This document shows, one piece after another, positions 3,667 to 26,207 of a stretch of 46,928 nucleotides of DNA. The position numbers and the translations under genes are program-made. Below the pieces are notes generated by a model, which was given only the letters and a program-made list of their open reading frames with translations, did no database searches and had not been told where the DNA came from. Origin of the DNA: Clostridia bacterium (GTDB lineage: Bacteria > Bacillota > Clostridia > RGIG7378); contig JAFYSJ010000033.1 in the NCBI GenBank assembly GCA_017559445.1, positions 1 through 46,928 on the forward strand. Direction: 5' to 3'. The first letter of the stretch is position 1. Every line of letters starts with the position of its first letter.

Positions 3667-5442
3667 TTATTCCTCCCTAAACTGGTATCTATAGAGACCG
3701 GCGTAGATGCCGTCCTGTGCCATAAGCTCCTCGTGGTTGCCTCTCTCTGCAACGCCTCTCTCGTCGATAACGATGATTTCGTCGGCTTTCTTAACTGTGG
3801 AAAGTCTGTGGGCTACGATAATCTCAGTTCTGCCCTTACCAAGCTCCTCCAAGGAAGACTGTATCTGCATTTCTGTTGCATTATCCAAAGCAGATGTGGC
3901 CTCGTCCAAAATAAGGATTGGGGGATTCTTAAGGAATGCTCGAGCAATGGAAATTCTCTGCTTCTGTCCGCCACTGAGCTTAACGCCTCTCTCGCCAACA
4001 TTTGTGTCATATCCATCTGGTAATGTCATAACATAATCATGGATATTTGCTCTGCGTGCTGCCTCCTCAATTTCTTCCTGGGAAGCATTGAAGTTACCGT
4101 AAGCGATATTCTCACGGATTGTGCCATTAAAGAGGAAAACGTCCTGTGCAACAATACCGATGTTTGCACGGAGGGAGTCTCTTGTCATGCCCTTTATATC
4201 CATGTCATCAATCAAAATACGTCCACCGCTAATTTCGTAGAATCGTGGAATCAAGTGACAAAGAGTTGTTTTGCCGCCACCAGAGGGGCCAACCAAAGCA
4301 ACAGTTTTGCCTGCATCAATTTCAATATTAAGGTTATGTATCAAAAGCTTGTCGTCACCGATAGTTTCCTGATCTCTGTAGTCGAAACAAACATCCTCGA
4401 ATCTAATTGTGCCGTTTACCTTACCAACATCAACTGCATCAGGCTCGTCTTTTTCTTCGGGCTCATCCATAAGGTTCAAGAAACGCTCAAATCCTGTGGA
4501 TCCTTCCTGTACCTGCTCAAAGAGACCAACCAACATGTTGATAGGTCTAAGGAAGCTGTGGATGTAAAGCAAGAATGCAGTGAAGGCACCAATTGTAATT
4601 ACACCCTTATAAAGGAAGATACCGCCACCAACAATTGCCATAAGGTAAAGCAAGTCCATAAGGAAAGTCATACCGGAATGGAACTGGCCCATGGACTTAT
4701 ATCTATAGGAAGATGCCTCAACAAACTGGCCGTTGATATTGTCGAACTTAGAAAGCTCGTGATCTCTTGTTGTGTAAGCACGGGAAACTCTGATGCCGCT
4801 AACAGAATTGTTAATGTCAGCGTTCATTTCAGCAGTCTTTTTGCGGCAGCTGGAAAATGCATCGTGCATACGCTTACGCATAATGAGGGCAAAGATAACA
4901 ATAATCGGAACAAATGCAAAGATGATCAAAGTAAGCTGCCAACACTTCTGAACTAAAATGATGAAAGAACCGATCATCATAATGCCAGCCAAGAAGAAGT
5001 TCTCGGGTGCATGGTGGGCTAGCTCAGATACGTCGAAGAGGTCGTTGTAAACCTTGGACATAATTGTACCTGTCTCGTTGTCGTCGTAGTACTTAAGTGG
5101 CAACTTCTGCAGGTGATGGAAAACATCATGACGCATTGCGCCCTGCATTCTTGTACCGATAACGTGGCCCTGGTATGCGATGAACATGTTACAGAACATC
5201 TTTACTACATATATAAGTAATAAGAGTCCGCCCAAGAGAAGGATTGTCTTGAGAATGCTTTCTGCAGTCAATGCGCCTGTGCCCTCTGCAAGTCCCTCAC
5301 AGCTATCAATAATTTTTTCTGCCACAGAAGGGTAAACCAAATCGATGATTGATACGATAAGCGCACAGATCATGTCGATGGAGAACAACTTCATATGTGG
5401 TCTATAGTAACGAATAAACCTTCTAATCATGGATAACTTCAT
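3667..5442 (-). CDS. ABC exporter, fused membrane and ATPase domains (MsbA/MDR type)
   Basis: A 591-residue half-transporter that would work as a dimer in the membrane and export a lipid, drug or peptide; the substrate cannot be told from sequence. Residues about 1-310 form a six-helix type I exporter domain. The ATPase domain follows, with GPSGGGKTT (Walker A), LSGGQKQR (signature), [12 protein letters not shown] (Walker B) and a switch histidine in VAHRLST. The ATG has AAAGGG upstream and lies inside the end of the FAD dehydrogenase gene (20-base overlap), which implies translational coupling. No second half-transporter gene is adjacent, which favours a homodimer. Confidence 0.93.
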
Positions 5443-17438: not shown

Positions 17439-17913
17439 TGAGTGCATCCTCCAATACGTCCTTTTCTTCTGCGGAAAGCATATACTGACACAAACCGCTG
17501 GAAATAGGCTTAGCAAATGTTGTTGTACCTTCTCTTGTATACAAACCTGTAATCAAAACACCGTCGTTGTTTCTATCCAACAATACTACTGAGAAGGACT
17601 GGTCAGATCCAACATCTTCAAAAACATTATATCTCTTAACAGAAACCTTTTGAATATTTGTGGCAGATCTATTATCCAATTCGATAATTCTGTTGTTTGC
17701 CATAACATATTCCTTCTTAAGGTAGTCAATTTCCTCAAGATTTCTGAAGATAACATCTTCAATACTAGATAAACCTTCGCTATTACGCATGAACTTCTTA
17801 TATTTTGCTTCCAACTTGCTAGTACGACTAATGAGCCATACCAAAAGGCCCAAAGTAGCTGCTAACATTAAGGACATTATTATAAGAACGATTCTCAATG
17901 TGGTTACTGACAT
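17425..17913 (-). CDS. DUF4446 family protein
   Basis: A 162-residue protein with an N-terminal membrane segment (about 5-28), a short coiled coil (about 33-78) and a C-terminal soluble domain. That domain has the family landmarks KRYNVFEDVGSDQSFSVVLLD, DGVLITGLY and YAKPI-like TFAKPI. DUF4446 genes commonly follow parB in Clostridia, as here, starting one base after the parB stop. The function is unknown; the position suggests a link between the segregation complex and the membrane. Confidence 0.88.
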   Translation of the reverse strand: MSVTTLRIVLIIMSLMLAATLGLLVWLISRTSKLEAKYKKFMRNSEGLSSIEDVIFRNLEEIDYLKKEYVMANNRIIELDNRSATNIQKVSVKRYNVFEDVGSDQSFSVVLLDRNNDGVLITGLYTREGTTTFAKPISSGLCQYMLSAEEKDVLEDALNAKY

Positions 17914-22999: not shown

Positions 23000-24103
23000 T
23001 TAGTTTGTGCCCCTAACTGCAGCGATTGTATATACAAAGCTATCGCCAGAAACAGGCTTAATTGTACATGGTCCGAGAGCTGTGCAAATATTAAGTACTA
23101 CTGTGTCCTCTTCGATAACTCTAACAATTTCGTAGAAAAGTCTAGGATTAAAGGAAATAGTCATTGGCTTACCTTCCATGTTAACAGGCATTTCGTCCTT
23201 AATCTTACCACCCTCAGAGTTAGCGGAAATTGTCAAAATATCGTTGTTAATATCAAGCTTAATGGAGTACTTACGAGATTCGGAATAAAGGAGAACAGAT
23301 CTCTCAAGACAAGAAAGAAGCTGATCTGTGTTAACAACAAGCTTAGTTTGGTAATCTGTCATTGCTAAATTTCTATAATTAAGGTACTTACCTTCCAAAA
23401 TTCTAGAAACAACTTCTGTACCAGGTACGGAGAACAAAATTTGATTATTGCTTACTGTAATAGAAAGGTCTCCCTCATCGTCACTAAGAATCTTACCAAT
23501 ATCACCCATTGTCTTAGCAGGAACAATGCAAGAGAAATTGCTGTTCATCTGTGTCATTACAGATCTACGAAGAGCCATACGAATACCATCAATTGCAACT
23601 ACAACAACATTGTTCTCATCTGTTTCAATAAGAATACCTGTAAGAACCTTTTTTGTTTCATCTGTAGAAGCAGCGAAAATAACCTGACGAATAATCTCCT
23701 TCATTTCCTGCTGAGAAATAACAATCTTTTCACCATTTGCAACAACTGGAAGTCCTGGGAAACCTTCTGCATCTCTTCCTTTAATCTTAAACTCTGCAGA
23801 ACCAGAAACAATTGTAATGTCGTATGCAGGTGTTACAGAAATAGTAAGTGTATCCTCTGGAAGTTTCTTAACGATTTCGCCAATAATTCTAGAATCAATA
23901 ACTACAGAACCTGTTTCGTTAACAGTTGCAGGACACTCTGTTCTAATACCCATCTCAAGGTTATTACCTGTAAGAACAACCTTGCCCTCCTCTGCTACAA
24001 AGAGGATACCCTCAAGAATGGAGTATGTTGTTCTAGGATCAACTGCCTTCTGAGCAATGCTGATTGCGTTTGTCAAATTATTTCTGTTACATGTGAAAAT
24101 CAT
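23000..24103 (-). CDS. dnaN: DNA polymerase III beta sliding clamp
   Basis: The ring-shaped processivity clamp. The 367-residue protein begins with MIFTCNRNNLTNAISIAQKAV and ends with the conserved-type CTIKPVSGDSFVYTIAAVR (abridged ends), giving three clamp folds. AAAGGAG precedes the ATG, which borders the origin unwinding region. Proteins with QL-LF motifs dock here; the Y-family polymerase at 35136-36641 has such a motif. Confidence 0.98.
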   Translation of the reverse strand: MIFTCNRNNLTNAISIAQKAVDPRTTYSILEGILFVAEEGKVVLTGNNLEMGIRTECPATVNETGSVVIDSRIIGEIVKKLPEDTLTISVTPAYDITIVSGSAEFKIKGRDAEGFPGLPVVANGEKIVISQQEMKEIIRQVIFAASTDETKKVLTGILIETDENNVVVVAIDGIRMALRRSVMTQMNSNFSCIVPAKTMGDIGKILSDDEGDLSITVSNNQILFSVPGTEVVSRILEGKYLNYRNLAMTDYQTKLVVNTDQLLSCLERSVLLYSESRKYSIKLDINNDILTISANSEGGKIKDEMPVNMEGKPMTISFNPRLFYEIVRVIEEDTVVLNICTALGPCTIKPVSGDSFVYTIAAVRGTN

Positions 24104-24142: not shown

Positions 24143-24154
24143 TAGTAGTAGTAG
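24143..24154 (+). promoter_or_regulatory. DnaA-trio element, TAG x 4
   Basis: Four perfect TAG triplets in tandem, followed by GGGC (24155-24158) and then the first box. DnaA-trios in Bacillus have the same trinucleotide sense and the same position relative to the GC-rich spacer and box, and guide DnaA filament growth on single-stranded DNA toward the AT-rich side. Confidence 0.75.
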
Positions 24155-24158
24155 GGGC

Positions 24159-24175
24159 TGTCAGTATGTCAGTAA
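24159..24175 (+). repeat. Two tandem origin boxes (TGTCAGTAT, TGTCAGTAA)
   Basis: Copies at 24159-24167 and 24167-24175 share one base, so they are spaced eight bases apart. The first differs from the consensus only in its last base. They sit next to the GC spacer and trio, the place of the two strand-opening DnaA boxes in Bacillus. Confidence 0.8.
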
Positions 24176-24231
24176 ATCCCTGAAACCCTTGATTTACAAG
24201 GCTTTCAACTATGAAAATTATCAACATTAAC

Positions 24232-24252
24232 TGTCAGTAAAAATGTCAGTAA
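24232..24252 (+). repeat. Two origin boxes (TGTCAGTAA, perfect)
   Basis: Perfect copies at 24232-24240 and 24244-24252, 12 bases apart, in the same orientation as the first pair. A near-canonical TTATCAACA lies just before them (24218-24226) on the opposite sense. Confidence 0.8.
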
Positions 24253-24314
24253 ATTTTTGATATGTTGGTATCTAAATTTATAAACATTTTATTAACCCTT
24301 TATCCAATGGAAAA

Positions 24315-24323
24315 TGTCAGTAA
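24315..24323 (+). repeat. Origin box (TGTCAGTAA, perfect) abutting the dnaA stop codon
   Basis: The fifth copy ends exactly one base before the dnaA stop codon and has the same orientation as the others. Confidence 0.75.
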
Positions 24324-25655
24324 CTATACGTTTCCGCTGATGATTTGAATAAGCTCATCAATTTTTTCTTTGACTGTGATCTTAGTATTAATATCTTCCT
24401 TGATCTTATCGTAAGCGTAAATAATAGTTGTATAGTTTCTATTACCAAAGGCAGCGCCAATCTTGTTAAGAGAAGCATCTGTTAATTCTCGACAAAGATA
24501 CATGGCAATCTGTCTTGGATATGTAATGTCCTTAGTTCTCTTTTCGGAAAGGAAAACAGAGGGTTTAATATTAAAGTATCTAGCAACGGCTTCCTGAATA
24601 GTCTTAATGGTAATAACCTTAGGATTATTAGGAAGGGATTCTCTAAGTGCCTCTACTGTCAATTCTCTAGTAATTGGTTGGCCTGTAATGTTGGAGTAAG
24701 CAGATACCTTGTTAAGTGCTCCTTCAATCTCACGAATATTAGAAACAAACTTACCTGCAATGTACTCAAGTGAACTATCGTCAATATTAACTCCGCCAAT
24801 CTTAGCCTTTTTCTTAAGGATTGCGATTCTAGTTTCATAATCTGGTGGAGTAATCTCTGTGATTAATCCCATTTCAAATCTAGAAACAAGTCTTTCCTCC
24901 AAAGAAATAAGTCCCTTAGGTGGCTTATCACTGGTGATGATTATCTGCTTGTTTGCCTCATAAAGGGCGTTGAATGTGTGGAAAAATTCAATCTGAGTAC
25001 TTTCTTTTTTCTCCAAGAACTGAATATCATCAATAAGGAGATAATCAATAGTCCTGTACTTCTCCTTGAATTTTTCAGTAGTCTTATTTGTGATTGAGTT
25101 AATAAGTTCAGTCATAAATTTCTCAGAGGAAATGTAGAGAACCTTTGCCTCTGGGTTGTTATTGAGAACGTAGTTACCTATTGCGTGCAAAAGGTGTGTC
25201 TTACCAAGACCAGCAGGGCTATATAAGAAAAGGGGGTTGTAAGCACCAGCAGGATTCTCAGCTACAGCAGCACATGCAGCATGAGCAAAACGGTTACCAC
25301 CGCCAATAACAAATGACTCAAATGTATATTTAGGGTTAAGTGAAGAAAATTTAATAGAGCTACTGTCTGTAAGCTTGCGCTCTTGTTCCATAACAAAAGA
25401 TTCGTTACCTTTAACGAAGAAATAAATCTTATAATCCTTTTGTGTAACAATGCTAACAGCAGCAGAAATCAAATTGGAATAACGGGACTCCAAAGTATTC
25501 TTAATAAACTCAAGCTCTACCATAAGGTACATGCGGTCCTCATCCATGCTGTATGGGATGATTGGACTGATCCATGTTCTATATGTAAGGTCTGTAACCT
25601 CAGGCTGTATTGTCTCTAAGACTTTATCCCAAATGTTGTCTATAGAATTAGCCAT
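24324..25655 (-). CDS. dnaA: Replication initiator DnaA with divergent DNA-recognition motif
   Basis: DnaA binds origin boxes and opens DNA as an ATP filament. At 443 residues all four domains are present. The AAA+ part has SPAGLGKTH (Walker A, 146-154) and LLIDD (Walker B), and NIREIEGAL holds the sensor arginine. The C-terminal DNA-binding domain keeps YPRQIAMYL with Arg381 (E. coli Arg399), but the signature that normally reads GGRDHTTV is GNRNYTTI (404-411). Thus Asp433 becomes Asn407, His434 becomes Tyr408, and Pro423 becomes Asn397 (SLNKIG), while both threonines stay. These are residues that contact box bases, which fits the non-canonical boxes next to the gene. A promoter is seen at 25725-25753. 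Confidence 0.97.
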   Translation of the reverse strand: MANSIDNIWDKVLETIQPEVTDLTYRTWISPIIPYSMDEDRMYLMVELEFIKNTLESRYSNLISAAVSIVTQKDYKIYFFVKGNESFVMEQERKLTDSSSIKFSSLNPKYTFESFVIGGGNRFAHAACAAVAENPAGAYNPLFLYSPAGLGKTHLLHAIGNYVLNNNPEAKVLYISSEKFMTELINSITNKTTEKFKEKYRTIDYLLIDDIQFLEKKESTQIEFFHTFNALYEANKQIIITSDKPPKGLISLEERLVSRFEMGLITEITPPDYETRIAILKKKAKIGGVNIDDSSLEYIAGKFVSNIREIEGALNKVSAYSNITGQPITRELTVEALRESLPNNPKVITIKTIQEAVARYFNIKPSVFLSEKRTKDITYPRQIAMYLCRELTDASLNKIGAAFGNRNYTTIIYAYDKIKEDINTKITVKEKIDELIQIISGNV

Positions 25656-25724
25656 ATAACCCCCAAAAATACCTCTAAAAAATGTCTAAAAGGGCGCAGT
25701 AATGCCCGGACATTATATAGAGTT

Positions 25725-25753
25725 ATAATAGCAAAAAATGGCCCTTTTTACAA
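25725..25753 (-). promoter_or_regulatory. dnaA promoter
   Basis: Minus strand TTGTAA (25748-25753), 17 bases, TATTAT (25725-25730), with TGC just before the -10 (extended). The transcript would start about 63 bases before the dnaA ATG and form a small GGGC/GCCC hairpin whose loop contains TTACTG, the first six bases of the origin box. Confidence 0.7.
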
Positions 25754-25980
25754 CAGAATTGTTACTATAGAAAAGGGTAATGACAAATAATTAATGATCA
25801 ATTAAGCTAATCAATAATGATGAATGAAGATGTAAATTATTTTTGGATAATAATGTGACTTACTGATAAATAAGATATTGTAGTTAATTAAAGTCCTTTA
25901 TTTGTATTTAGTCGTTCATATTTTTAAAAATCAAATAATAATTAGCGTTAGCAAAGAACATTTAACACTAAATATGGTAG

Positions 25981-26009
25981 TTGACATAGATACCCTATTC
26001 AAATATAAT
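25981..26009 (+). promoter_or_regulatory. rpmH-rnpA promoter
   Basis: TTGACA (25981-25986), exactly 17 bases, TATAAT (26004-26009): a full-consensus sigma-A promoter, 63 bases before the rpmH start. Confidence 0.92.
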
Positions 26010-26072
26010 TCGTCCGTATGCCCCTCGTAGGGTTTACTATATTTTGCGCAAAAAACTTGGAGGTTTTTAGAT

Positions 26073-26207
26073 ATGAAGATGACATTTAATCCTAACACAA
26101 GATCCAGAAGCAAGAAGCACGGTTTCCGTCTTAGAATGAGCACAGCTAACGGCCGTAAGGTTCTCAAGGCTAGAAGAGCAAAGGGCAGAAAGGTTCTCTC
26201 TGCATAA
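26073..26207 (+). CDS. rpmH: 50S ribosomal protein bL34
   Basis: A 44-residue, highly basic protein beginning [18 protein letters not shown] and ending in [10 protein letters not shown], the standard bL34 pattern; it binds 23S rRNA. TTGGAGG lies before the ATG. As in most bacteria it is divergent from dnaA and followed by rnpA (38-base gap). It heads the rightward rpmH-rnpA-yidD-yidC-jag-mnmE-mnmG-rsmG run. Confidence 0.97.

Follow-up and report, generated by a model that had tools for sequence, protein, structure and literature searches.

The replication initiator DnaA and its presumed boxes appear to have changed together in a poorly known gut clostridium, and we regard a coordinated shift (co-evolution) of DnaA-box specificity as the best explanation of the two sets of changes, with a probability of roughly 0.8 on the evidence of sequence comparison. 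The DNA analysed (the window) spans 46,928 bases from the start of contig 2 in a draft clostridial genome of 1.68 Mb. Co-evolution had been proposed in the initial annotation, and it gains support from a joint change that is seen again in a sister species, that places the variant boxes in the slot of the basal unwinding (BUS) layout, that is set against canonical outgroups and that is paralleled in a second lineage by the same C6->G substitution.

The origin and its variant boxes

The sign of the GC skew flips at 24-26 kb of the window, and the dnaA-dnaN stretch is therefore the origin region; together with the standard gene order, this makes the dnaA-dnaN gap a real chromosomal oriC. As membership of DnaA demands, a single dnaA lies beside dnaN at the skew minimum. 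The genes after dnaN are, by sequence recognition, presumably recF, gyrB, parA and parB, and those diverging on the other side of dnaA we take, on the same grounds, to be rpmH, rnpA, yidC, jag, mnmE, mnmG and rsmG. The features of the region are:

23000-24103, reverse strand: dnaN (beta clamp), the downstream neighbour of dnaA
24104-24323, reverse strand: dnaA-dnaN intergenic region of 220 bp, the predicted oriC, with the GC skew sign change, boxes and trios
24143-24154, reverse strand: four DnaA-trios, CTA CTA CTA CTA (3'-GAT-5' on the other strand), then AT-rich DNA (trios as defined in PMC8287927)
24154-24158, reverse strand: GC-rich patch GCCCC between the box pair and the trios
24159-24167, reverse strand: variant DnaA box ATACTGACA, second of the BUS pair, with one base in common with the first; conserved in the sister species (L003)
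24167-24175, reverse strand: variant DnaA box TTACTGACA, first of the BUS pair; the slot in L085 holds TTATCCACA
24218-24226, forward strand: single near-canonical site TTATCAACA in the opposite orientation; the aligned L003 site (4430-4438) is TTATTGACA
24232-24240, reverse strand: variant DnaA box TTACTGACA; its L003 counterpart is ATACTAACA
24244-24252, reverse strand: variant DnaA box TTACTGACA, kept at the same offset in L003
24315-24323, reverse strand: variant DnaA box TTACTGACA, immediately after the dnaA stop codon; conserved in L003
24324-25655, reverse strand: dnaA, 443 aa, the sole DnaA of the genome

Pattern search bore out the description of the 220-base gap as holding four copies of TTACTGACA and one of ATACTGACA, all five in one orientation, and no canonical box. 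On the forward strand these read as TGTCAGTAA (24167-24175, 24232-24240, 24244-24252 and 24315-24323) and TGTCAGTAT (24159-24167); on the dnaA strand TTACTGACA begins at offsets 0, 71, 83 and 148 and ATACTGACA at 156. TTACTGACA is the sole motif repeated in the gap. It keeps bases 1-3 and 7-9 of the canonical box and has three core changes, two of them at positions that the consensus TTWTNCACA fixes; the third, at position 5, falls where the canonical box is degenerate, which leaves T4->C and C6->G as the informative ones. TTWTNCACA is absent from the gaps of the window and its sister, neither of which has the box cluster of a canonical oriC, and the two copies of TTATCCACA in the window (34180 and 46772) are far from the gap. 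The near-canonical TTATCAACA is present as first described but is not the only such site, since TTATAAACA at 24278 also has a single mismatch; the sister's TTATTGACA, aligned with TTATCAACA, is intermediate between the old and new boxes. The initial annotation had overlooked the DnaA-trios, the abutting of the last box on its neighbour and the substitution H439Y (Tyr413) in DnaA.

The expectation for an exact 9-mer over the whole window is 0.47, in keeping with the earlier estimate of less than one, and five copies were reached in none of 100 shuffles. Since the motif was chosen after the fact, the fair test is for any 9-mer at all: one occurred in at least four copies in 15 of 5000 gap shuffles, a post hoc chance of about 0.003. 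The searched genome set includes one other species of the window's genus and none further in its family or order. This sister (G001, L003) is a sheep-colon MAG whose DnaA is 86% identical to that of the window and carries the same recognition residues. The gap, likewise of 220 bp, has its boxes at offsets 0, 71, 148 and 156; ATACTAACA stands in place of one window box, and one extra CTACTGACA has arisen. With the motif now fixed beforehand, the sister gap contains three copies of TTACTGACA, and none of 5000 shuffles gave more than one. Between the two gaps, the box columns defined in the window are identical at 42 of 44 positions (95%), compared with 102 of 162 (63%) elsewhere (p=1e-5). The combination that would speak against co-evolution, the same DnaA signature with canonical boxes, does not occur in the sister, which alone among the relatives has the full signature.

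The last box pair, TTACTGACATACTGACAG, is followed by CCC, CTACTACTACTA and AT-rich DNA. A BUS consists of a box pair with DnaA-trios within 16 bp (PMC8287927; cryo-EM in PMC10721633) and, provided that TTACTGACA is accepted as a box, the window has such a pair no more than 16 bp from at least three trios. It resembles the BUS of B. subtilis (PMC6669920, PMC8287927, PMC10721633) in its head-to-tail box pair, GC patch, CTA trios and dnaN, and in the domains I, III and IV of its DnaA; it differs in that its boxes, TTACTGACA and ATACTGACA, share one base, where those of B. subtilis are TTATCCACA-like, and in its changed DnaA recognition residues. The same slot is filled by TTATCCACATAGCCAACAGCACTTATTACTATTATTACTA, holding TTATCCACA, in L085 (DnaA about 55% identical) and by a sequence beginning TTATTCACATAATTAACAGCAC, holding TTATTCACA, in L010. 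Because the variant boxes occupy the canonical-box slot of these relatives before the trios, we take them to be sites for DnaA and not for another regulator. A viral scan for the BUS pair gave no match. Three genomes with an Asp433-His434 DnaA (L182, L163 and L112) have as their second, trio-proximal BUS box TACTAACA, one base off TACTGACA; a weak trio-proximal site of the TACTAACA type might have been the source from which the variant box spread.

Genome-wide counts were obtained by pattern search. TTATCCACA occurs 23 times against 33 for its reversed control, unclustered and not enriched, while TTACTGACA occurs 17 times against 9 for its control. Four of these copies are in the gap, 11 of the 12 other exact copies outside the window are inside long open stretches and the fifth exact copy in the window, at 17904, falls within a coding region and is not conserved in the sister. 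The variant box is therefore concentrated at oriC, and the genome search found no wider regulon; a TTACTGACA regulon beyond oriC was rejected, nearly all copies being coding and the nearest one unconserved. Pairs of TTACTGACA matched in five other genomes among 391 of the class, none of them near dnaA or dnaN.

In many clostridia dnaA is flanked by boxes on either side. The rpmH-dnaA interval (25656-26073) contains no exact variant or canonical box in the window or the sister species, and a sub-origin on the rpmH side was rejected as a candidate, given a single TTACTGATA at 25860 in the window that is missing from the sister. The origin may be monopartite.

The recognition residues of DnaA

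The protein exceeds the cut-offs of PF11638, PF00308 and PF08299, corresponding to domain I, the AAA+ domain III and the C-terminal HTH domain IV, and scores 541 bits against TIGR00362 (cut-off 344). There is one DnaA gene in the genome, the sole other match being below the curated cut-off. Residues were mapped by alignment to B. subtilis DnaA (8btg, E=5e-136) and by matches to the E. coli domain IV entry (1j1v). N397, N407, Y408, R381, T409 and T410 are thereby equivalent to P423, D433, H434, R399, T435 and T436 of E. coli, exactly as had been claimed. In E. coli DnaA, base-specific contacts are ascribed to R399, P423, 432-435, 438 and 439 (PMC5043019; PMC7561715). At these positions the window DnaA has the changes P423N, D433N, H434Y and H439Y (E. 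coli numbering) and keeps R381, R406 and T409 (R399, R432 and T435). The changed codons are:

24465-24467, reverse strand: N397
24435-24437, reverse strand: N407
24432-24434, reverse strand: Y408
24417-24419, reverse strand: Y413

P423, D433 and H434 are usual in DnaA without being strictly defining; the window has N, N and Y, and these three residues vary among other true DnaA proteins also. Changes at 423 are common in other lineages, and Y439, found in 25 of 149 DnaA loci, is not distinctive. N433 itself is a rarity, present in 23 of 213 genomes; its combination with Y434 was confined in that sample to the window and its sister. In a search of 398 genomes of the phylum for a GNRNYTT-like DNA pattern, only the window's own match was DnaA among the 20 that were retrieved; the readable ones among the rest proved to be rpmG (L33) or a penicillin-binding protein and were discarded as further DnaA candidates.

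A second lineage and the residue-to-base relationship

DnaA and the dnaA-dnaN gap were gathered by searching at class, order and family level and from the contigs of named genomes; both were usable in 213 genomes. The triad N423, N433 and T435, whose definition was refined and in which the role of T435 was noticed after the data had been seen, is present in 7 of the 213, in two separate clades. It has two origins on a tree built without domain IV, too few for a significant sign or phylogenetic test. The second clade (L048, L054, L057, L060 and L065) is made up of rumen or abomasum MAGs whose DnaA is about 40% identical to that of the window. These genomes resemble the window in the triad, in gaps that lack TTWTNCACA and in the change C6->G, the BUS box being TTTTCGACA in four of the five and TTTTCGACC in L054; unlike the window, they keep H434 and T4. 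C6->G thus accompanies N423, N433 and T435 in both lineages, and T4->C occurs only where Y434 has been added. A second variant box family, TTTTCGACA with TTTTGAACA, is present in the gaps of this clade.

In the wider sample TTWTNCACA is missing from all seven triad genomes but from only 32 of the 189 without N433 or S433, and at least two copies of TTnnnGACA are found in six of the seven and in 2 of the 189. At position 6 of TTnnnnACA, genomes with D433 have C in 475 of 791 boxes and G in 24; in triad genomes G occupies 22 of 37 and C never occurs.

The attribution to individual residues stood in part. D433N alone as a sufficient cause of G6 was ruled out once the second lineage's family had been sampled. 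Outside the triad, canonical boxes are lacking in 9 of 17 genomes with N433 or S433, and the other 8 still have one or more, for the most part with S or A at 435; a TTTTCCACA is retained by each of L194 and L271 (N423, N433, A435) and L270 (N423, N433, S435). N433 lineages with S or A at 435 have mixed A6/C6 boxes, often with some C6 kept, and this weakens the attribution, as does the frequency of H439Y elsewhere. H434Y alone was likewise ruled out as a sufficient cause: Y434 does not suffice for C4 because H433-Y434 lineages keep TTTTCCACA, with T4. Outside the window and its sister Y434 is always paired with H433, and in the 213-genome sample T4->C is confined to a single lineage.

Several other genomes bear on the diversity of origins. 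In L052, L055, L059, L068, L075 and L209 DnaA has His-Tyr at 433-434 and canonical-type boxes (TTTTCCACA or TTATCCACA) surround dnaA, an apparent swap of His-Tyr for Asp-His without a change of box. L233 and L237 (S423, N433, H434 and S435) have gap boxes TTTTAAACA or TTTTGAACA, which may amount to a third variant, and lack canonical ones. The DnaA of L014, L031 and L176 has N433 and A435; an S4-domain gene and recF come after dnaA in these genomes, with dnaN outside the stretch examined, and their origin may be elsewhere.

Interpretation and significance

From the observed sequence, its conservation and layout, the distribution among lineages and the parallel case we infer a scheme of binding and of residue-to-base assignments. 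TTACTGACA would be the DnaA box of this lineage, its head-to-tail array putatively bound through the changed recognition helix, and the last two boxes would position DnaA for loading onto the adjacent CTA trios and opening of the duplex, as in the B. subtilis BUS. Asn423 and Asn433, with Thr435 kept, may have replaced the reading of C6 by that of G6, and Tyr434 may, in their context, accompany C4 instead of T4. On general chemical grounds, the amino group of C or A can donate a hydrogen bond to Asp, whereas Asn would be able to address purines; this would fit the A6/G6 boxes of N433 lineages. A residue-to-base code in the changed helix is likely rather than proved. A broader proposal, to which we give a little less than even odds, is that the triad is a recurrent switch from C6 to G6, made at least twice in clostridia, and that Tyr434 adds T4->C to it, which would make the pair orthogonal to canonical DnaA and boxes.

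Specificity might instead have been relaxed and not switched, many middle bases being tolerated and TTACTGACA being one of several sequences bound, TTATCCACA included. The mixed boxes of the N433 lineages with S or A at 435 and the persistence of the TTATCAACA site are in its favour, but relaxation predicts drift and varied boxes, whereas TTACTGACA is uniform and constrained across two species and no TTWTNCACA is left in either gap; we consider it unlikely. Coincidence, with an origin that drifted and HTH substitutions that are neutral or serve another role, is less probable again: the lineage is a long branch in its own order, and H439Y and changes at 423 are common elsewhere, but the rarity of N433, the restriction of its pairing with Y434 to the window's lineage and the parallel C6->G in a distant clade all tell against it. 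That TTACTGACA is the array of another DNA-binding protein (such as a regulator of dnaN), with DnaA acting on degenerate sites or elsewhere, is very improbable: operators, too, can take the form of a 9-mer repeated ahead of a gene, and one near-canonical TTATCAACA is inside the gap, but the boxes are exactly in the BUS slot before the trios and retain DnaA-box bases 1-3 and 7-9, the skew marks the origin, the genome has no canonical cluster elsewhere, the base-contact residues of DnaA have changed and the second triad lineage has similar boxes.

A coordinated shift of specificity has precedents among known systems. A 2015 review found no box in studied origins more than two mismatches from TTATCCACA except in Thermotoga, the H. 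pylori box, with changes at positions 2 and 5, being the most distant 9-mer (PMC4285127). Thermotoga maritima, with its ACCTACCAC boxes (12-mer AAACCTACCACC; PMC10316083, PMC4285127), shares changed base-contact residues and non-canonical boxes with the window but differs in box sequence and length, and is deep-branching, whereas the nearest outgroups of the window are canonical; the Thermotoga-type ACCTACCAC core does not occur in the window's gap. In Epsilonproteobacteria helix 5 substitutions were proposed to set box preference (PMC5043019), and the TCATTCAC boxes of this group (PMC5043019, PMC4285127) are comparable in that a lineage-specific preference is ascribed to that helix; they have two mismatches, at positions 2 and 5, and keep T4 and C6, both of which have changed in the window. 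The kind of change is thus already known, and TTACTGACA and its residue set are not described in the literature examined; a text search for TTACTGACA gave no paper on DnaA boxes among the 20 of 157 matches listed.

Few regulatory words of bacteria are as conserved as the DnaA box. Its three core changes in this lineage, accompanied by corresponding substitutions in the reading helix and by a partial parallel elsewhere, allow one to test how an essential, single-copy initiator-origin pair evolves. Origins of the TTACTGACA type can be missed by tools that search for canonical boxes, and the window's pair of initiator and origin could become an orthogonal replication-initiation module. The parallel lineage suggests a testable rule by which bacteria may rewrite the code of their origins.
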